This document shows, in pieces, positions 5,988-27,119 of a stretch of 64,000 bases of DNA. Made by a program: the position numbers and the translations under genes. Each line of letters begins with the position of its first letter. The first letter of the stretch is position 1. The stretch is from Thunnus maccoyii (taxonomy: Eukaryota > Chordata > Actinopteri > Scombriformes > Scombridae): contig NC_056538.1 of assembly GCF_910596095.1 (NCBI RefSeq), positions 32,267,094 to 32,331,093 of the forward strand. The letters run 5' to 3'. The notes beneath the pieces are model-generated. The model had not been told where the DNA came from. It did no database searches and saw nothing but the letters and a program-made list of their open reading frames with translations.

Positions 5988-7167
5988 CTGCCACTTGTCT
6001 GGAAGTTCAGACGGGTAACGGGCCTCCCTTCCATACATAAGGAAATAAGGGGAATATTTACTGGTTATCTGTTTTTTTTGTACGAAGCCCAAAGACAGTC
6101 GGTTTTATATATCTGTCCCAGTCCATTGGGTGGTCTTGTGTCATCTTTTTCAAAGCCCTGAAATTGAACAAATATGGTCATTCTCTAGAGAGATAGAAAG
6201 ACACTAAATATAGATAGAGATGTACACAGAAAATGTAGAAAGTTGTATTTTCACCCTTGAATGGTGCCATTAAGCTTTTCCACCAACCCATTTGTCTGTG
6301 GGTGGTATGGTGCACAGAGGCTCCTGGCAATGCCAAGCTTGGCACACAAATCCAGGTTGATCTAGCACAAGCATTGGATATGAAAATGAAGAACATACAT
6401 TTTTATGTAACACCATGTTGTTTTCCCCAGTGTTGCTGTCTACAAAAATAAAAAAAGATATAATAATATCATATGTCTCAGAATTCAATTTACTTTGTTG
6501 ACAAATTCTTTTCCTTGGTCAGTAAGAATTCGTTTTGGTGCACCATACTTGTAGAAAAAATCCATTATGCACTCTGTCACCTCCTCAGCCCTCTTACTTT
6601 TTCATGGATACACCTCTAGCCATTTGGTGAAATAATCCACCGTAACGCAAATATATGTGTGTCCATTGGTTGAACACTTCAACTTGCCCACAAGGTCCAT
6701 CCCCACAAGTTCAAAGGGCTCTGACACCTTAAATGCAAACCAAACCATATCATCAAGTATAAGACTTTTATGTTTAATTTAATAAGAACATTCACCTTGA
6801 TGGGTTTATACTGGATTTTCTCCTTTATAGATGCCCCCTTTTTTTGGCAGTCATCACATTGGGCTATCTAATAAAGTAAAACAATTGAGACACTCAGATA
6901 TGAAATATGTAAATATTTCCATAAGATCCACAGAAATATGGAGCAATAATGTACTCACCCATTTTGTGATGTCTGCCTTCATACCAGGCCAGTAATTCCT
7001 TTGAAGAATTGCATGCATGGTCTTGTCCACTCCACAGTGGGCCCCGATAGCACTGGCATGAAACTCAAGAAAGATGTTGTTTGAGTCATGTGGAGTGTGG
7101 ACGACTTTAGCAAGATGATGTTGCTGCTCATCGCGCTTTCTATGGCACTGGTAATACAGTTCCCCAT
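5988..7167 (-). pseudogene. Ginger1 integrase part: zinc finger and DDE core
   Basis: Exons at 6,959-7,167, 6,796-6,867, 6,494-6,727, 6,255-6,361 and 5,988-6,157. The first two give the H2C2 finger: His residues in EFHASAIGAHCG and the pair QCDDC in the next exon. The third gives VGMDLVG (first catalytic Asp) and LTDQGKEF (second Asp). The fourth gives PYHPQTNGLVEKLN (catalytic Glu). All three DDE residues are therefore present. An in-frame TGA interrupts exon 3 at 6,602-6,604, and an 8-A run shifts the frame in exon 5. Donors are GTGAG, GTGAA, GTAAA, GTGAA and GTATG. Confidence 0.85.
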
Positions 7168-7344
7168 CTAGAGATTACATTGCCATACACAATTGAAATG
7201 ACATTTAAAATTCAATAACACAATGGATATAGTGCTGTTGTGTGGTTTGACGGTAAGTGTTTGGCAACTTTTGCTGCCAGACTTTTTACCATTTTTTTAT
7301 GATTTTTTTTTTTACAGTGTAAACGGATGAATTGTGCATGATCA
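7168..7344. other. Junction between transposase relic and Ig array
   Basis: AT-rich spacer with a run of ten T's near 7,305. No coding signal is seen. The Ig copy begins abruptly at about 7,345, mid-domain. Confidence 0.5.
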
Positions 7345-8158
7345 GTGAAATGAAAAAAGAACATTTGAAGTGATGAAAAACACATCAGGTCTTGTTGTAT
7401 CTGACTACAAATTCATAACCTCTTCAGAGTACATCTGTCTGGTGATGAACAAAAAGCAGTGTGTTAGCAGCCATTCTGTATACACTGCTATACGACCAAA
7501 GATACACCTCCACTCAGTGGGAGAAAGGGCCGTGTTGGACTGTGCTGATCTCAGTGATGACCAGCCACCACTTTGGAAGAAGTACATGACAAAGGATTTC
7601 AACCCCTCCAGGACCAACTCTACAGTATTGGAAAGAAACGACTCATCACTTACATTGAATGACTCAGGTATTTACAGCTGTGAACACTCTTTCAAAAAGG
7701 AAATGCATTTATTGGGGGTGTGCCCCAAAATTGGTCCACCTGCTGTAGCGTTCTTCTCAGAGGGAGAAGACGTCACTCTCAGATGCAATCAGACAGGGGA
7801 TTTCAAGATCTTTTGGTTCATGAAGTCGAACCAAACAGAAGGCAGAACCGTTGATCTAAATCCACAAGAACTAGATGAGGGAAGCAGAATAAAAATATCT
7901 CACCCTAACATGAGTCTGGTTCTTTCTAATGTCTCACTGGAAGACACTGGGGAGTACTGGTGTGCGGCTGTGGACCAAAATTATCGGTGTGTGTCAACAT
8001 ACAAGATCCTTCTAGTGCACAGAGAGCCGTGTGGGATTTGCTTCATCGTCTATGCAGTGAGGTCTTCACTGCTCAGCGGTCTGCTGCTGACGCTCTGTGT
8101 CGTTGTCGTCGCTGTAACCAGGACGACCAGGAGAGGAGAGCAGATTACAGCTGTTTGA
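7345..8158 (+). pseudogene. 5'-truncated copy of the intronless four-Ig receptor
   Basis: The frame is open from the junction at about 7,345 to the TGA at 8,156-8,158 and matches the two full copies from the second half of Ig domain 2 onward: rest of D2, D3, D4, membrane segment and tail. The signal peptide, D1 and first half of D2 are absent. A five-residue segment before the D3 'SLTLNDSG' strand is also missing relative to the full copies. The C-terminal 40 or so residues are identical to the copy at 9,828. Without a signal peptide it is unlikely to make a surface receptor, unless an upstream exon is spliced on. Confidence 0.8.
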
Positions 8159-9827
8159 GAGGTCATATGTGTGAGTATATGTTCATATTTACTCATCATC
8201 AGGTTTTAAAAAAATATATATATGTACTCATTTCTCATTGTCTTTAATACAGTGTGTTAAATTCTTGATATTGCAATAAACAAAAAGAACGACTCAGTGT
8301 ATGTGATAATTTGATTTTAATAATAATGATTTTTTTTAAATTTGCTTTTTTTGTGTGTCTGTGTAGACACACTGTGGATTTTGGCCTCCATCACTTACAT
8401 TGAAAGCACATTTGAAGGATCTTTTAATATCCAGTATGAACAGGAGTGTTTGTGAACCTATCCTTTAACTCATAGCTTAGATGTTTTGTTAAGATGTTTA
8501 AAACTGATCTATTGGAGACATTTGGTTCAAAGTAAAGCGTTGAAGAAACCGTCTTTTATTATAAATGTTGTCATCAGTGAGACGTCGACCCTTCAGTCTA
8601 CTAACTGCTCTCTGTTCCTCCTCAGTTATTTCTGTGTTAAAGGTGCTTTTCTGTGTCTCACCAATAGATGGCAGGTCAAGCAACTTGAGGCAAGGCTCAT
8701 ATATTCAACATGAAGGCAATTTAAAGTAGAGCTGGGTGATATTACCTCAAATCAATATCATGATTAATTGTCACATTTACCTCGTATGTAATGATGAATC
8801 AAACAATATCTTATTAAATACAGTTGTATAGTTATTTGTACTGAAAAATAAACAGAAACCCTGGATTATGACTGAGTCATATTTCTTTATCATATTCAGT
8901 AGTTCAGTACACTTCTACACTTTCAGGTGTTTGTTTGATAAAACAGGAACTTCAAAGTAAAATATGGCTCCATTTAACATATCTTGTGAATGTCAGAATG
9001 TCGAAACATTGAGGATTTTGGGAATGTTGAAGAGGATCAATATCCTAGTTAAAAATTTAAATAAATTGAACTTTCTGAACATGTTTTGCTCTCACCCACA
9101 AACATATCTCTCCCTCTCCCCACACTGATTATATCTATGTCTCTCTCACGGTCTAACTCTTCATTATCTGTGTGTTTGAAGGTGTGTTTGTCTCAGTGGT
9201 TTGGTCACATCCTCTCACATTGCCCCCACAGCTGTACATCAAACCTGCAGGCACCAGTTTCACTGTGTCTGTCTCTAAAGTCCTCTGTTTTCATGCTTTT
9301 AGTTGATTTGGTGCAGATTCTCACACACATCAAAGAGGTTTGACCATATATTTACTCGGTTTTAATTCAGTTTATTTTCTACTAGTTAACACAAACTCTG
9401 TGTACAACATACACTAAAACCTTGATAAACTCTTTGGAGTTGAGGCCCATGTATACATCACATTCATTATAAAACACTTGCCAGCTGTTAAAACCTGCGA
9501 ATTGCCAGGATATTAGTATAAAATTAAGAGACCTGTTAAATCAAGCATCACCCGACTTTTACTTGAAATAGTTTTAGACGTTGGTATTTTTATTTTGACT
9601 TCAGCAAAGGATCTTAATACTTTCTCCACTACTGTCTGTTTGTGGACTAATTAGTGAAACTGTTGAACTGAATTTAAACAAACACAGATTACTCGATACG
9701 GAGCCTAATGGTTCAAAGTTTCCCATGATGGTGAGATAAAGGAGAGCTGATGGGAGGTGACATCAAACTCATGAGCTGACAAGTATCAAGTGTTTGCATC
9801 ACACTCACATGCAGATCTCAGAGCAGG

Positions 9828-11189
9828 ATGGCTGCAGTCGCAGAGCTCTCCTTCTTGCTGTTTGCTCTCATCAACAACATTCATGCAGAAGAACTTATCG
9901 TCATAGAAGAGCAGAAGGACTCTTTCACCTTTGAACCACCCAAGGAAGCCAACTTCTGCCTCATCTCCACATTTGTCGGTGAGGGGAAGCGAGTTCTGCT
10001 GAACACCTCTGACCTCTGGTCCCAAAACTCCACAGCACCTGAACACTTGAAGGAAGGACTTCCAGTTGTCAGCAAGGAGAATAATTCTTCTTACAAGATC
10101 CACAACCTGACTCACTCACACTCAGGCCTGTACCAAGAGCAGTGTTGGACGGAGGGTGAGGTGACATATGAGAAAAACATCAGCATTGTTGTTTGCGGTA
10201 CAATAGATGAGACAACAGTTATTCCAGTAAATTTGGGTGAAAGATTTGAACTACCATGTAAGGGAGCAGCCAATAATCTGACGGTCCAGTGGCTCCAGCA
10301 TGAGTCTGGATATGAGGAAGACATATGGACAAGAGTTTTTGGGAGCAGCACGACGTCGCTGATGGACAATGAAAAAACAACATTCGAAGTGATGAAAAAC
10401 ACATCAGCTCTTGTTGTATCTGACTACAAATTCACAGCCTCTCTGTTGTACATCTGTCTGGTGATGAACAAAAAGCAGTGTGTTAGTAGTCATCCTGTAT
10501 ACACGTATATAGTACCAAAGATACACTTCTACTCAGTGGGAGAAAGGGCCGTGTTGGACTGCACTGATCTCAGTGATGACCAGCCACCACTGTGGAAGAA
10601 GGACATTACAAAGGATTTCATCCCCTCCTGGAACAACTTCACAGTACTGGAAAGAAACTACTCACTGGTGTTTTCATCACTTACATTGAATGACTCAGGT
10701 TATTACGCCTGTGAAAACTCTTTCAAAGAGGAAATGTATTTACTTGCGGTGTGCCCCAAAATGGGTCCACCTGCTGTAGTGTTCTTCTCAGAGGGAGAAG
10801 ACGTCACTCTCAGATGCAATCAGACAGAGGATTTCGAGGTCATTTGGTTTTTGAAGTGGAACCAAACAGAAGGCAGAACCGTTAATCTAAATCCACAAGA
10901 AATAGATGAGGGAAGAAGAATAAAAATATCTCATGCTAACGTGGGTCTGGTTCTCTCTAATGTCTCACTGGAAGACACTGGGGAGTACTGGTGTGCGGCT
11001 GTGGACCAAAATGCTCAGTGTGTGTCAATATCCAAGATCCTTCTAGTGCACAGAGAGCCGTGTGGGATTTGCTTCATCGTCTATGCAGTGAGGTCTTCAC
11101 TGCTTAGCGGTCTGCTGCTGACGCTCTGTGTCGTTGTCGTCGCTGTAACCAGGACGACCAGGAGAGGAGAGCAGATTACAGCTGTTTGA
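9828..11189 (+). CDS. Intronless four-Ig-domain membrane receptor, copy 1 (453 aa)
   Basis: Single uninterrupted frame of 453 codons. Signal peptide 1-20 (MAAVAELSFLLFALINNIHA). Four Ig-like domains follow: D1 about 21-123 (Cys44, Cys106), D2 about 125-229 (Cys144, Trp155, Cys210), D3 about 230-309 (Cys245, Trp256, Cys295 in NDSGYYAC) and D4 about 313-408 (Cys330, Trp340, Cys389 in DTGEYWC). The membrane segment spans about 416-440 with an Arg at 422. The tail is only about 13 residues, with no tyrosine motif. There are many N-x-S/T sites. The start is the first ATG, directly followed by the hydrophobic leader. Arg in the membrane plus a short tail suggests pairing with an ITAM adaptor; this is inferred. 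I do not recognise the exact family. Confidence 0.85.
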   Translation: MAAVAELSFLLFALINNIHAEELIVIEEQKDSFTFEPPKEANFCLISTFVGEGKRVLLNTSDLWSQNSTAPEHLKEGLPVVSKENNSSYKIHNLTHSHSGLYQEQCWTEGEVTYEKNISIVVCGTIDETTVIPVNLGERFELPCKGAANNLTVQWLQHESGYEEDIWTRVFGSSTTSLMDNEKTTFEVMKNTSALVVSDYKFTASLLYICLVMNKKQCVSSHPVYTYIVPKIHFYSVGERAVLDCTDLSDDQPPLWKKDITKDFIPSWNNFTVLERNYSLVFSSLTLNDSGYYACENSFKEEMYLLAVCPKMGPPAVVFFSEGEDVTLRCNQTEDFEVIWFLKWNQTEGRTVNLNPQEIDEGRRIKISHANVGLVLSNVSLEDTGEYWCAAVDQNAQCVSISKILLVHREPCGICFIVYAVRSSLLSGLLLTLCVVVVAVTRTTRRGEQITAV

Positions 11190-11726
11190 GAGGTCATATG
11201 TGTGAGTATATGTTCATATTTACTCATCATCAGGTTTAAAAAAAACAAACAAAAAAAAAACTTAAATGTTATTTTGTGAGGTGAAATATCAAATATCAAT
11301 ATCCTGATTTCATTGTATTGTGTGTAATGACAATAACGGTTTCTATAGATATCAATGTGAAATGTACAAGATGTGACATACAAAGACAGGTAGAGAAAGA
11401 GATACTGTGGAGGAGACCTGTACATTATGTTTTTATTTTTAACATTTCAACAATCAACCTTTTAACATTGCTTTCACTCAAGTTTTTTAATAATCCTTTT
11501 ACTATCTTTTATCATGTTTTTACTGTATTGATGTTTTATTTTTAACCTAATTATTTCATGTTTAAAAAGAACATATGTTAAGCTGAAGCAGACTGATGTT
11601 TATTTTTATATCCAGTTTTTATGGTTCTGATTGTGATTTCTGGTTTTTATTATCATAAACAACATGTCTCTTGTATAATGTGTCTTAAACTGTGTTTATC
11701 CATGCCTTTACTGCTTTGCTTTTTCA

Positions 11727-11732
11727 AATAAA
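11727..11732 (+). promoter_or_regulatory. Polyadenylation signal AATAAA, copy 1
   Basis: AATAAA about 540 bp after the stop codon, conserved in the sister unit at 15,866. It is the best candidate 3' end signal of the single-exon gene. Confidence 0.5.
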
Positions 11733-13796
11733 CATGAACTTGATTCACAAATTTTACTGCTTTAATTGTGACTTTTTTAATTCCAGTATCATTTGTGTAA
11801 TATATGATAAATTGCATTTTAAAATAAGTAAAGGATTGTATTTAAGCACATTTCAGGTACATATTACTGCTACTCCATGCTGTTCTGTATACATCTTGCA
11901 CATAGATGTAGTTTACTAATTGCATTAAAGGACGGGTTCACAGTTTTTCAAGTCTGTTTTAAAACAACAGTCACCATCAGAAGATCCCTTCATAATGCAC
12001 TTACAATATAAGTGATGGGAGACAAAATCCATAGTCCTCCTTCTGTGCAAAAATGTATTTAAAAGTTAATCTGAAGCTAATATGAAGCTTCAGCGTCCAA
12101 ATGAGTCAAATCAAGTAGATATCTTTCAACGTTACAGTCTTTTTAGTGCCAAAGTCCCTCTTTTTGTTACTATACTTCCACCGCAGCTCAACAGGGAAAC
12201 ACTGTCTGAGGAAACACAAAGACGGAATCTGATGCTAAAAAGACTGTAAATGTGTCAGATATCCACTTGATATGACTAACTCAGACTGCTGAAGCCTCAT
12301 ATAAGCTTCACATCAACTTTTAAATGACTGTGTAGACACACTGTGGATTTTGGCCTCCATCACTTACATTGAAAGCACATTTGAAGGATCTTTTAATATC
12401 CAGTATGAACAGGAGTGTTTGTGAACCTATCCTTTAACTCATAGCTTAGATGTTTTGTTAAGATGTTTAACACTGATGCATTGGAGACATTTGGTTCAAA
12501 GTAAAGCGTTGAAGAAACCGTCTTTTATTATAAATGTTGTCATCAGTGAGACGTCGACCCTTCAGTCTACTAACTGCTCTCTGTTCCTCCTCAGTTATTT
12601 CTGTGTTAAAGGTGCTTTTCTGTGTCTCACCAATAGATGGCAGGTCAAGCAACTTGAGGCAAGGCTCATATATTCAACATGAAGGCAATTTAAAGTAGAG
12701 CTGGGTGATATCACCTCAAATCAATATCATGATTAATTGTCACATTTACCTCGTATGTAATGATGAATCAAACGATATCATATTAAATACAGTAGTATAG
12801 TTATTTGTACTGAAAAATAAACAGAAACCCTGGATTATGACTGAGTCATATTTCTTTATCATATTCAGTAGTTCAGTACACTTCTATACTTTCAGGTATT
12901 TGTTTGATAAAACAGGAACTTCAAAGTAAAATACGGCTCCATTTAACATATCTTGTGAATGTCAGAATGTGGAAACACTGAGGATTTTGGGGATCTTGAA
13001 GAGGATCAATATCCTAGTTAAAAATTTAAATAAATTGAACTTTCTGAACTTGTTTCACTCTCACACACTGTCTTATCTCTCCCCACACTGATTATATCTA
13101 TGTCTCTCTCACGCTAATACTCTTCATTATCTGTGTGTTTGAAGACATGTTCGCCTCAGTGGACTGGTCACGTACATTTCCTCTCACATTTCCCCCACAG
13201 CTGTCCATCAAACCTGCAGGCACCAGCTTCACTGCGTCTGTCTCTAAAGTCCTCTGTTTTCATGCTTTTAGTTGATTTGGTGCAGATTCTCACACACATC
13301 AAAGAGGTTTGACCATATATTTACTCGGTTTTAATTCAGTTTATTTTCTACTAGTTAGCACAAACTCTGTGTGCAACATACACTAAAACCTTGATAAACT
13401 CTTTGGAGTTGAGGCCCATGTATACATCACATTCATTATAAAACACTTGCCAGCTGTTAAAACCTGTGAATTTCCAGGATATTAGTATAAACTTAAGAGA
13501 CCTGTCACATCAAGCATCACTCGACTTTTACTTGAAATAGTTTTAGACGTTGGTATTTTTATTTTGACTTCAGTAAAGGATTTTAAAACTTTCTCCACTA
13601 CTGTCTGTTTGTGGACTAATTAGTGAAACTGTTGAACTGAATTTCAACAGACACAGATTACTCGATACGGAGCCTAATGGTTCAAAGTTTCCCATGATGG
13701 TGAGATAAAGGAGAGCTGATGGGAGGCGATATTGAGCTCATGAAGTGACAAGTATCAAGTGTTTGCATCACACTCACATGCAGATCTCAGAGCAGG

Positions 13797-15158
13797 ATGG
13801 CTGCAGTCGCAGAGCTCTCCTTCTTGCTGTTTGCTCTCATCAACAACATTCATGCAAGAGGACTTATCACCATACAAAAGGAGAAGGCCTCTTACACCTT
13901 TGAACCACCCAAGGAAGCCAACTTCTGCCTCATCTCCACATTTGTCGGCGAGGGGAAGCGAGTTCTGCTGAACACCTCTGACCTCTGGTCCCAAAACTCC
14001 ACAGCACCTGAACACTTGAAGGAAAGACTTCCAGTTGTCAGCAAGGTGAATAATTCTTCTTACAAGATCCACAACCTGACTCACTCACACTCAGGCCTGT
14101 ACCAAGAGCAGTGTTGGACGGAGGGTGAGGTGACATATGAGAAAAACATCAGCATTGTTGTTTGCGGTACAATAGATGAGATAACAGATATTCAAGTAAA
14201 GTTGGGTGAAAGATTTGAACTACCATGTAAGGGAGCAGCCAACGATCTGACGGTCCAGTGGCTCCAGCGTGAGTCTGGATATAAAAAATACATATGGACA
14301 AGAGTTTTTGGGAGCAGCACGACGTCGCTGATGGACAATGAAAAAAGAACATTCGAAGTGATGAAAAACACATCAGCTCTTGCTGTATCCAACTACAAAT
14401 TCACAACCTCTCCAGAGTACACCTGTCTGGTGATGAACAAAAAGCAGTGTGTTAGTAGTCATCCTGTATACACTACTATACGACAAAAGATACACCTCTA
14501 CTCAGTGGGAGAAAGGGCCGTGTTGGACTGCACTGATCTCAGTGATGACCAGCCACCACTTTGGAAGAAGTACAATACAAAGGATTTCAACCCCTCCTGG
14601 AACACCTTCACAGTATTGGAAAGAAACTACTCACTGGTGTTTTCATCACTTACATTTAATGACACAGGTTATTACAGCTGTGAAAATTCTTTCAAAGCTT
14701 GTTTTCATACACTGATGGTTTGCCCCAAAATGAGTCCACCTGCTGTAGCGTTCTTCTCAGAGGGAGAAGACGTCACTCTCAGATGCAGTCAGACAGGAGA
14801 TTTCGAGGTCACTTGGTTAATGAAGTGGAACCAAACAGAAGGCATAACCGTTGATCTAAATCTACAAGAAATAGATGAGGGAAGCAGAATAAAAATATCT
14901 CACGCTAATGTGGGTCTGGTTATCTCTAATGTCTCACTGGAAGACACTGGGGAGTACTGGTGTGTAGCTGGGGACCGAAATGGTCAGTGTGTGTCAATAT
15001 CCAAGATCCTTTTAGTGCACAGAGAGCCGTGTGGGATTTGCTTCATCGTCTATGCAGTGAGGTCTTCACTGCTCAGCGGTCTGCTGCTGACGCTCTGTGT
15101 CGTTGTCGTCGCTGCAACCAGGACGACCAGGAGAGGAGAGCAGATTACAGCTGTTTGA
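13797..15158 (+). CDS. Intronless four-Ig-domain membrane receptor, copy 2 (453 aa)
   Basis: Same length and layout as the copy at 9,828: leader 1-20, four Ig-like domains, Arg-containing membrane segment and short tail, all in one open frame. By eye about 60 of 453 residues differ. None lies in the leader and only one in the last 44 residues; the rest are in the ectodomain. Residues 21-33 are especially divergent (8 of 13 differ), although the DNA on either side is nearly identical. A new Cys appears in domain 3 (FKACFHTL). An intact frame despite this much change suggests a functional, diversifying receptor. Confidence 0.85.
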   Translation: MAAVAELSFLLFALINNIHARGLITIQKEKASYTFEPPKEANFCLISTFVGEGKRVLLNTSDLWSQNSTAPEHLKERLPVVSKVNNSSYKIHNLTHSHSGLYQEQCWTEGEVTYEKNISIVVCGTIDEITDIQVKLGERFELPCKGAANDLTVQWLQRESGYKKYIWTRVFGSSTTSLMDNEKRTFEVMKNTSALAVSNYKFTTSPEYTCLVMNKKQCVSSHPVYTTIRQKIHLYSVGERAVLDCTDLSDDQPPLWKKYNTKDFNPSWNTFTVLERNYSLVFSSLTFNDTGYYSCENSFKACFHTLMVCPKMSPPAVAFFSEGEDVTLRCSQTGDFEVTWLMKWNQTEGITVDLNLQEIDEGSRIKISHANVGLVISNVSLEDTGEYWCVAGDRNGQCVSISKILLVHREPCGICFIVYAVRSSLLSGLLLTLCVVVVAATRTTRRGEQITAV

Positions 15159-15865
15159 GAGGTCATATGTGTGAGTATATGTTCATATTTACTCATCATC
15201 AGGTTTAAAAAAAAAAAGAAAAGAAAAAAATATATGTACTGATTTCTCATTGTCTTTAATACAGTGTGTTAAATTCTTGATATTGCAATAATCAATGTTA
15301 TCTGTTCATAATTGAACATAAGAGACAGAGAGAGAGGTTGAGATTTTCATTATCACAAAAAAAATTACTCAGTGTATGTGATGATTTATGATTTATTTTT
15401 TTATTTGCATTTTCAAGGTGAAATATCAAATATCAACATCCTAATTTCATTGTATTCTGTATAATGACAATAACGGTTTCTATAGATATCAATGTGAAAT
15501 GTACAAGATGTGACATACAAAGACAGGTAGAGAAAGAGATACTGTGGAGGAGACCTGTACATTATGTTTTTATTTTTAACATTTCAACAATCAACCTTTT
15601 AACATTGCTTTCACTCAAGTTTATTAATAATCCTTTTACTATCTTTTATCATGTTTTTACTGTATTGATGTTTTATTTTTAACCTAATTATTTCATGTTT
15701 AAAAAAAAAAACATGTTAAGCTGAAGCAGACTGATGTTTATTTTTATATCCAGTTTTTATGGTTCTGATTGTGATTTCTGGTTTTTATTATCATAAACAA
15801 CATGTCTCTTGTATAATGTGTCTTAAACTGTGTTTATCCATGCCTTTACTGCTTTGCTTTTTGCA

Positions 15866-15871
15866 AATAAA
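15866..15871 (+). promoter_or_regulatory. Polyadenylation signal AATAAA, copy 2
   Basis: AATAAA in the position equivalent to 11,727 of the sister unit. Confidence 0.5.
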
Positions 15872-16509
15872 CATGAACTTGATTCACAAATTTTACTGCT
15901 TTAATTGTGACTTTTTAAAAATTCCAGTATCATTTGTGTAATATATGATAAATTGCATTTTAAAATAAAGTAAAGGATTGTATTTAAGCACATTTCAGGT
16001 ACATATTACTGCTACTCCATGCTGTTCTGTATACATCTTGCACATAGATGTAGTTTACTAATTGCATTAAAGGACGAGTTCACAGATTTTCAAGTCTGTT
16101 TTAAAACAACAGGGATAAACTGAACTTTCTGAGCTTGTTTTGCTCTCACACACAAACATATCTCTCCCCACACTGATTATATCTATGTCTCTCTCACGCT
16201 AATACTCTTCATTATCTGTGTTGTCTCAGTGGTTTGGTCACATCCTCTCACATTTCCCCCACAGCTATCCATCAAACCTGCAGGCACCAGTTTCACTGTG
16301 TCTGTCTCTAAAGTCCTCTGTTTTCATGCTTTTAGTTGATTTGGTCCAGATTCTCACACACATCAAAGAAGTTTGACCATATATTTACTCGGTTTTAATT
16401 CAGTTTATTTTCTACTAGCTAACACAAACTCTGTGTGCAACATACACTAAAACCTTAGATAAACTCTTTGGAGTTGAGGCCCATGTATACATCCCATTCA
16501 TTATAAAAC

Positions 16510-17342
16510 ACTTGTCAGCCAATCAGATTAGAGAATTCTCCATATTGTACATATTTGAGGTATTTGTACTTTCTTTTACTTGACTGTTTCTACTTTATGA
16601 TACTTTACGTCATTGAAATTTTGTACTTTTAACTCCACTTGGTTACTTTTCAGATTAGGATTTTATATAAAAAAGCATATATTATTATATAATATGATGC
16701 AGTAGTATTACTATTAATCTTCCCAGTAATATATAAAGTACCTAAAACTGGCTCGACGTTGACAAATTACATTACAAAGCTCTTACATGAACTCTTTAGT
16801 CATAAAAACAGAATAATATATTTTGATAATATAACTCTCTAAATGAGTCCTCCTGCATGATGACTACTTTTACTTTTGATACTTAAAGTACATTTTGCTG
16901 ATAATACTTCTGTACTTTTACTTGAGTAAAATTTTTTTCAGGATGTTTGGTAATGTTTTATCAAACAGGTTCTTTAATTTTACATAAATGACCTGGAGTA
17001 ATTTGCAGGTATATAACGGTGGATTTTTAGGACATTTTACAAAGAGGGTGGGACAATGTGGTTCAAAGTATTAGAAAAGAAAATATCAGAGAAAAGTGTG
17101 AAATTGGTTTAGTTAACAAATATGCTAATATATCATATTGACATACAAAACTAGTAAGTTTATTAAAGAATAGTTAAGAATCTAATTTATTAAGATTTTT
17201 TGCAAATGAAGAACTACATATAAACCTAAATATATTGAGTGGGTATTTACCAACTAAACCAAATTAACACTTTTTTCCATTTTTAAGATAATTTGTACCA
17301 AATTGCACCACTCTCTCTGAAAAATGTCCTAAAAATTAATTG
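16510..17342. mobile_element. Inserted AT-rich element in the third partial unit
   Basis: Sister units read continuously from 'aaaacacttgccagc' into 'tgttaaaacctgtgaa'. Here about 830 bp separates these two phrases. The insert includes a part rich in 'tacttttacttgagtaaa', a phrase common in fish non-autonomous elements. No coding capacity is seen. Confidence 0.6.
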
Positions 17343-17682
17343 TTAAAACCTGTAAATTGCCAAAATATTAGTATAAAAGTAAGAGACCTGTTAAATCAAG
17401 CATCACTCGACTTTTACTTGAAATAGTTTTAGACGTTGGTATCTTTATTTTGACTTCAGTAAAGGATTTTAAAACTTTCTCCACTACTGTCTGTTTGTGG
17501 ACTAATTAGTGAAACTGTTGAACTGAATTTCAACAGACACAGATTACTCGATACGGAGCCTCATGGTTCAAAGTTTCCCATGATGGTGAGATAAAGGAGA
17601 GCTGATGGGAGGCGATATTGAGCTCATGAAGTGACAAGTATCAAGTGTTTGCATCACACTCACATGCAGATCTCAGAGCAGG

Positions 17683-17764
17683 ATGGCTGCAGTCGCAGAG
17701 CTCTCCTTCTTGCTGTTTGCTCTCACCAATAACATTCATGCAAGAGAACTTATCACCATACAAT
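17683..17764 (+). pseudogene. 3'-truncated copy of the intronless receptor (leader only)
   Basis: Upstream flank from 17,343, then ATG and the leader MAAVAELSFLLFALTNNIHA plus seven residues match the full copies. At about 17,764 the match stops and an A-rich sequence begins, so no Ig domain remains. The promoter side is well preserved, so a short transcript is possible. Confidence 0.8.
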
Positions 17765-25077: not shown

Positions 25078-27119
25078 TCACAATTCAACCATTTCGAAGG
25101 AGTTCTCTGGATGGTCCTTTATTCGTGGTCTGGTGGAGGTTTCAGCTTTCTTGTATTTCTTCTTCTTCCAAGCAAAATAGATGGCAATCCCACCCAATAG
25201 AGAAAGTACCACAACTGCTCGCAAACCACACACAAGCAGTGAGTTATCTGTTCAGATACAGAGACACAAAAATCACATGTCAAGTTTGCACTGTGACAGC
25301 AAAGTTATGAAAGTACAACAGACTATATTGGCATGTGTGATGATAGTGGAAGGTTTAATGGTTGATTTCTAGTCATGTTCTGTCTCACCACACATAGATA
25401 TCTTCTTTTCTTTTGAGACATTACTGACGTGATTCCTGACAGAGCAGACCAGTAGTCCTGAGACGTCTTGTTTCAGAGTGATGATGTTGGTCTCTTTCTT
25501 TCCAGAGAGGAGCTGAGCGTCTGTCAGTGTGTGTCCATCCAGAGTCCAGCTGTACTGAGGACTGTCCCCTCCCTCAGAGGAACAGGACACCCTCATCTCT
25601 CGCTGGGACAGACACTCAGAGTCCAGCAGGACAGAGGACACAGGAGCTGAAAGAAACACACTCACATGACTTTTTGATGTGGCCATAAACATATTCAGTG
25701 TTTACAGTGTATGTATACAATTCTTGCCAGTTATGTGGCAGACTTTGAATATTTCATGTGAAATGTTTGTTTGCAAAGGTAAAATGTAGAAATAGTATTT
25801 GTATAGTAGTATGTGTATATGTTTGGTATTTACCTAGTTTCATTTTCCAAAATCATTTGTATTTTGAATTTTGAATCTATAATTCAAATTATGTAGCTGT
25901 TGGTTTATTGTGAATAATACAAATTAAATTGTAAGATTAATAATAGCAAAAGTAGTTATTTACCTTGAATAGACAACTGAAGAGTCCGCTGTTCTGATAC
26001 ATGTCCATTTGAATCAAAGGTTTCAAGGGTATATTCAGCACCGTCAGTCCTGCTCAGGTTATTTATCCTAAATGTTCCATTACTGGGAGTAAAGACGGAT
26101 CTGTCCTTCATCAGATTATACACAATCTTATCCTCTCTCCCATCAAGTATTTTTAAGGTTTTGTTTTTATACCATTGGTATCTTAATATTTCTGAGGTGT
26201 TGTCCATCAGCTGGAGCACCACAGTTCCTCCCAGAGCTCCATAACACTGAGTTTCATTCTGTCTGCCATCACAGTGGGTTTCAATACCTGGAAATATAGA
26301 AAAATACAGTGAAGAAAATGTTATCACAGTTGAGGTCATTGCATTTCTACTAAATTAACAACTGTGACAATGTTTTATGCAGGTGCAAATACTCATGTTT
26401 TGAAACAGAAACAACTCTGTCTCTCTCAGAGCACAGTTAGCATTACACGGACCTGTCAGTTAATAGTAATATTTCACTGTAGTACATTTTGTCATTTATA
26501 TTATTCTAGTTTTAGTAAATTAATCTCATACATTCATTACAAACTCATGCTGTGTTTTTCCACATCTACAGAAGTCCAAAATTACTAAATTATATATTTG
26601 GTGGGAATTTGTATAAAATGATAATTAAACTCTCAGCAATTTCTATGATGATTCCAATTAAAATAACATACTGTTAGTATAAGCATGATATAACTGAGTG
26701 TTTTATTGTTTGTTTTTAGTTCAGTTTTCCTGAACTCTCAGGGGAAAACTTTAATTTAATAGATTCATCTGTGGTAGATAATAACTGTAATTTTTACTGT
26801 ACATACACATGGATGTGGAACTGATCTTCAGATTTGCTATTGCTCTAAGAAACAACTTTTTGTAACATTTTTTAAAAACCTGATGGACCGAAGAAAAACA
26901 GAAACATCCGTTTCAAAGTGCTGCATTTCTCAATTGATTCTTAGAACTGGATTAATCTATAAAAGTGATCATACTTGATCCTATAGCTGCATAAAAAGTC
27001 ATAGTTGCACAACATGTTATTCACATAACGTTGAATCAATATTAAAATGTCAAATAGTGAAACAGCTCACCATGAGAGACTCCGAGCAGCATCACCAACA
27101 GTCCAACCACAGCTTCCAT
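25078..27119 (-). CDS. CD2/SLAM-family-like receptor A, short tail, no stalk exon
   Basis: Exons: signal 27,071-27,119; V 25,964-26,287; C2 25,389-25,646; membrane plus tail 25,078-25,247. All internal introns are phase 1 with GT-AG ends, giving 266 residues. Leader 1-16. The V domain (17-124) has Trp55 but no F-strand Cys, as in CD2-family domain 1. The C2 domain (125-210) has four Cys (136, 146, 192, 210). The membrane segment contains Arg220 (GLRAVVVLSLLGG) and is followed by KKKKYKK and a tail ending EMVEL, without ITIM. The stalk exon present in B-D is missing: C2 and membrane exons are only 141 bp apart against 422 bp in B. The shared phase keeps the frame. Likely a leukocyte surface receptor; the exact orthologue is not recognised. 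Confidence 0.8.

Follow-up and report, generated by a model that had tools for sequence, protein, structure and literature searches.

How does a receptor with four immunoglobulin (Ig) domains come to be encoded without introns? In the textbook layout of Ig-domain receptors, every domain has a phase-1 exon to itself, an arrangement that permits exon shuffling and alternative splicing. Two neighbouring genes in a 64,000-nucleotide stretch of the Thunnus maccoyii genome (the window; C6:32267094–32331093, where C6, like C5 and C10 below, is a contig label) depart from this layout. Both lie on the plus strand, at 9828..11189 (copy 1) and 13797..15158 (copy 2), each comprising 453 codons plus stop within a stop-free stretch of 469 codons, and their proteins are 87% identical. 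The original prediction, which had described two uninterrupted 453-residue frames running from leader to tail, is borne out on this point, and neither frame has an internal stop. It had further proposed an origin by retroposition, followed by tandem duplication with a new promoter, and had taken the A-rich tracts after the stop codons as a possible old poly(A). As argued below, the intronless coding frame and the tandem duplication stand, the A-rich tract does not hold up as poly(A), and retroposition is unproven. We consider it probable, from sequence comparison, that these genes encode functional intronless type I membrane receptors belonging to an old single-frame family, which expanded recently by tandem duplication at the DNA level and of which domains D2–D4 are under positive selection.

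Searching the fish's own genome returned 13 matches, which we read as seven intact frames, one broken copy, two remnants in the window and one remote relative. Besides the two in the window, the intact copies (L001–L007) include five minus-strand ones at C6:31.943–31.979 Mb, about 0.3 Mb off; all are 451–453 codons long and have nearly identical leaders. The remote homologue, at C5:24412879–24414546 on the minus strand, is 26% identical over residues 6–392 (some 390 residues) and again consists of one frame running through leader, four domains and membrane anchor, with a tail longer than in the C6 copies. A coding frame without introns, the trait looked for in a retrogene, is thus found in the genomic frames of both the C6 copies and the C5 gene. 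Alignment of the C6 group with the C5 gene requires gaps of at most 2 residues across the three domain boundaries, so that no intron between domains can have escaped notice, and a simple home-made splice-site scan gave no acceptor-like site above threshold in the seven C6 frames. Because the C5 homologue is also a single open frame, the intronless state appears to be old and to precede the tandem duplications; if it arose once, it must predate the split between C5 and C6, and any retroposition would long predate the tandem copies. An mTERF-domain frame of 406 codons (L021:1039–2259), some 4.5 kb away from the C5 gene, may serve as a synteny anchor.

Recent growth of the family can be read from the array itself. 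Copies 1 and 2 belong to a duplicated unit with a spacing of 3969 bases, in which the upstream region plus gene at 8356..11269 (plus strand) is 94% identical to 12325..15237 (plus strand), and the downstream part at 11279..11970 (plus strand, AATAAA 537 bases past the stop) is 98% identical to 15416..16112 (plus strand, AATAAA 707 bases past the stop). Upstream of the ATG, about 300 alignment columns show a mean identity of 96% among the seven intact copies. Since the repeat extends into the upstream DNA on one side and the 3′ flank on the other, duplication at the DNA level gave rise to the array, and the original proposal of tandem duplication is supported, with the upstream region included. 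The frames look functional judging from their substitutions: under neutral drift each copy would be expected to carry some two to three stops, yet all seven frames are stop-free, and in D2–D4 amino-acid change exceeds silent change (nonsynonymous rate dN 0.112 versus synonymous rate dS 0.071, bootstrap P 0.004), as expected for diversifying immune receptors. The two C6 sub-clusters (31.943–31.979 Mb and 32.274–32.285 Mb), separated by about 0.3 Mb, are oppositely oriented, which points to an inversion or an inverted duplication.

The 3′ flanks bear on the question of a poly(A) remnant. An A-rich tract follows the stop in both window copies, as the original prediction had noted, and in five of the seven intact copies overall; it is absent from L003 and L007, and a recent retrocopy carrying its poly(A) is rejected on these grounds. 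The sequence past the tract in L002, L005, L006 and the truncated window copy at 7349..8158 is the same as that in L003 and L007, and it is different in L001 and L004. We read the tract as what is probably a variable simple repeat. In six of the seven intact copies, a candidate AATAAA signal follows the stop at a distance of 537–743 bases; L004 has an additional one inside its A-rich tract, and L003 shows none within 1200 bases of the stop.

The search for an intron-containing parent that the original prediction had proposed brought up none, and only weak matches (E 0.036 or worse with D4, E 0.09 on C10). Among the results of five protein searches of the own genome, no gene with introns came closer to the family than the C5 gene does; such searches score only the best candidates, so that a distant or old parent could be missed. 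With D4 as the sole query, 13 weak matches outside the family were obtained at E 0.036 to 0.97. The C5 gene itself reached only E 0.42 in that search, by which scores for one domain fail to distinguish it from ordinary Ig exons; the case for kinship with the C6 family is drawn from the four-domain match. Inspection of the nine of these 13 matches for which loci were given, with about 1.5 kb on either side, revealed frames of 120–186 residues and no colinear exon set or parent. D1–D2 of copy 1 as query gave one further weak match, the 90-residue frame on C10.

How, then, did the single frame arise? A fairly recent retrocopy of a multi-exon Ig gene, tandemly duplicated with a newly acquired promoter, would explain the intronless frame, the tandem copies and the tract present in most of them. 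We hold it to be unlikely given the lack of an intron-containing parent among the best-scored candidates, the weakness of the nearest other matches, the intronless state of so divergent a homologue as the C5 gene and the two copies without a tract. Retroposition is nonetheless a possible source of the single frame if placed before the C5/C6 split, with the parent lost or diverged past recognition, and to this we assign a chance somewhat short of even. One mRNA step is the easiest way to rid leader, all four domains and anchor of introns, and the intronless state is shared by C5 and C6; against this, no trace of a parent emerged from the own-genome searches, and stepwise intron loss is an alternative suggested by the fused V–I exon of some novel immune-type receptor (NITR) genes of teleosts, as far as described in PMC2442602. 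Target-site duplications would no longer be preserved after so old an insertion. One ancient retroposition and stepwise intron loss are both compatible with the present data; the former is one route to the reading we prefer and not exclusive of it. An intronless Ig gene could also have been captured from a large DNA virus or exchanged with one, intronless coding being typical of viral genes. We find this scarcely credible: scanning viral contigs with the family profile gave 45 pattern matches of which none was confirmed, a scan that used two short patterns as pre-filter on contigs where few fish viruses are expected.

Several observations weigh against functional single-frame receptors as we propose them. 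The home-made scan places three to six donor-like sites inside each C6 frame, a donor-like site common to all seven C6 copies 96 bases before the ATG, which makes a 5′ untranslated region intron possible, and a strong acceptor-like site overlapping the C5 leader, by which that leader may be spliced. D3 taken alone shows no significant selection (P 0.18), and the pooled pairwise dN/dS counts lack independence and may be distorted by gene conversion. The seven copies were, moreover, chosen for being intact, and three of the ten recognizable copies (two of them in the window) are truncated or broken. This last proportion would suit nonfunctional copies that drift and are open by chance, an explanation that we nevertheless regard as very unlikely, with seven stop-free frames where drift would have left stops in each and with dN exceeding dS in D2–D4 rather than equalling it.

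Our preferred reading, that of an old single-frame receptor family, would run as follows. The ancestor common to the C6 family and the C5 gene would already have been single-frame, having lost its introns from a conventional Ig gene via reverse-transcribed mRNA or through conversion by cDNA, and its descendants would have inherited that state. The family would have grown recently by tandem duplication of DNA, with D2–D4 diversifying under positive selection in the manner of immune receptors that track changing ligands, and the proteins would reach the cell surface and act there as immune receptors. With a tail that lacks tyrosine, signaling, if any, would proceed through a partner; alternatively, the proteins may be adhesion or decoy molecules. 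More tentatively, we suggest that this is an old, wholly intronless multi-Ig family of fish, distinct from those Ig receptor families that already have names. Lacking introns, its compact 1.4 kb frames may be duplicated and recombined as whole receptors, D2–D4 diversifying under positive selection while most of D1, the leader and the anchor are homogenized. If so, receptors can diversify rapidly when compact single-frame genes are duplicated in tandem, and the family would serve as a natural experiment on the contribution of introns to receptor evolution. Annotation geared to spliced Ig genes could also miss or mislabel such single-frame genes.

Copy 1, with domain boundaries placed by eye, consists of a leader (residues 1–20), D1 (21–123), D2 (124–228), D3 (229–307), D4 (308–409) and a stalk, transmembrane segment and short tail (410–453). 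The best 19-residue hydrophobic stretch, 423–441, would form the membrane anchor and is followed by a tail of 12 residues. Pfam V-set and Ig_3 match both window proteins as a whole (E 1e-18 to 8e-21). Scored domain by domain, the two proteins so examined (copy 1 and the C5 homologue) pass the Pfam curated cut-offs with D4 alone, D1–D3 being recognizable below them; the four Ig domains of the original prediction are therefore retained on the basis of the architecture and the C5 homologue rather than of single-domain Pfam scores. D1 and D2 are atypical Ig domains. Comparison of D1–D2 with D3–D4 by hhalign gave a probability of 95.9% over 160 columns. In control comparisons D1–D2 matched six other profiles (one neighboring Ig gene and five Ig exons) at no more than 6%, whereas D3–D4 matched five generic Ig exons at 91–96%, so that internal duplication of a two-domain unit is likely yet falls short of certainty. 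In each half, extra cysteines occur at the linker and past the final canonical cysteine (123 and 218, and 309 and 398), of which 123, 309 and 398 are invariant in eight sequences and 218 is lost in copy L007; a linker-to-loop disulfide may exist in each half (123–218 and 309–398). Structure prediction from three window proteins yielded no usable model (mean predicted local distance difference test score, pLDDT, of 42).

Among known systems, the family resembles the NITRs, which form species-expanded and diversified clusters of Ig receptors in fish with Ig domains fused in one exon (PMC2442602). Within the scope of that account, V and I occupy one exon in the pufferfish NITR genes it names and in some medaka NITR genes (all those of chromosomes 18 and 21), and two exons in the remaining medaka NITR genes and the two-domain zebrafish NITR genes (PMC2442602). 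The sharing of one exon recurs in the C6 family, where all domains lie in one frame, but NITRs have one or two extracellular Ig domains and in the majority immunoreceptor tyrosine-based inhibitory motifs (ITIMs), whereas the C6 family has four domains by architecture, includes leader and anchor in the frame and has no tyrosine in the tail. Diversified receptors of fish with fused Ig exons are thus already known, and to have all of a four-domain receptor in a single frame goes one step further. Besides the ITIM tail, a charged transmembrane residue is a NITR trait; here Arg422 lies at the border of stretch 423–441 and not inside it, making it a weak candidate for an adaptor-pairing residue. The FGxG motif, a mark of NITRs, was not seen in the protein sequences of copy 1 or copy 2.

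CD229, of the SLAM family, has a V-C2-V-C2 layout, and the C6 genes recall the SLAM/CD2 type in that D1–D2 and D3–D4 look like a repeated two-domain unit and Ig genes of that type lie in the same region. Intronless families of membrane proteins exist in which one Ig domain stands beside leucine-rich repeats, and FIGLER is reportedly one such intronless family; these share an Ig domain encoded without introns and differ in having no tandem multi-Ig receptor. Of the solved structures, CEACAM1 matches the sequence of copy 1 best (E 6.4e-7, residues 274–391); it likewise has tandem Ig domains, and the match is a general Ig similarity with no evidence of orthology. A description of such an intronless four-Ig family was not found in the literature by title or abstract opening, subscription literature being poorly covered.

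The SLAM-like genes just mentioned are four tandem two-Ig (V + C2) genes on the minus strand of the window at 25300–52300, spaced by about 6–10 kb and represented by four V and four C2 exon frames. SLAM/CD2-type and SLAM/CD48-like are our own labels, Pfam giving only general Ig matches. In the one gene whose splice boundaries we read (25300–26500), V and C2 are separate exons in phase 1, in agreement with the one exon per Ig domain and phase-1 introns originally reported for these neighbors and in contrast to the single frame of the C6 family. Kinship between the two groups was not supported, at hhalign probabilities of only 5.9% (D1–D2) and 8.9% (D3–D4), obtained with shallow profiles; the former, though low, is the highest of the six profiles compared with D1–D2.

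Three incomplete copies accompany the intact ones. The broken copy lies in three pieces at C6:31973545–31974769. Within the window, a 3′-truncated fourth copy at 17341..17763 (plus strand) retains only the upstream region and leader, its first 27 codons being 17683–17763, and the 5′-truncated third copy at 7349..8158 (plus strand) runs from the second half of D2 to the tail with its frame still open. About 175 bases upstream of this third copy, on the minus strand at 6854–7174, lies an integrase fragment (Integrase_H2C2, E 1.6e-12), which perhaps marks the break point of the truncated copy.
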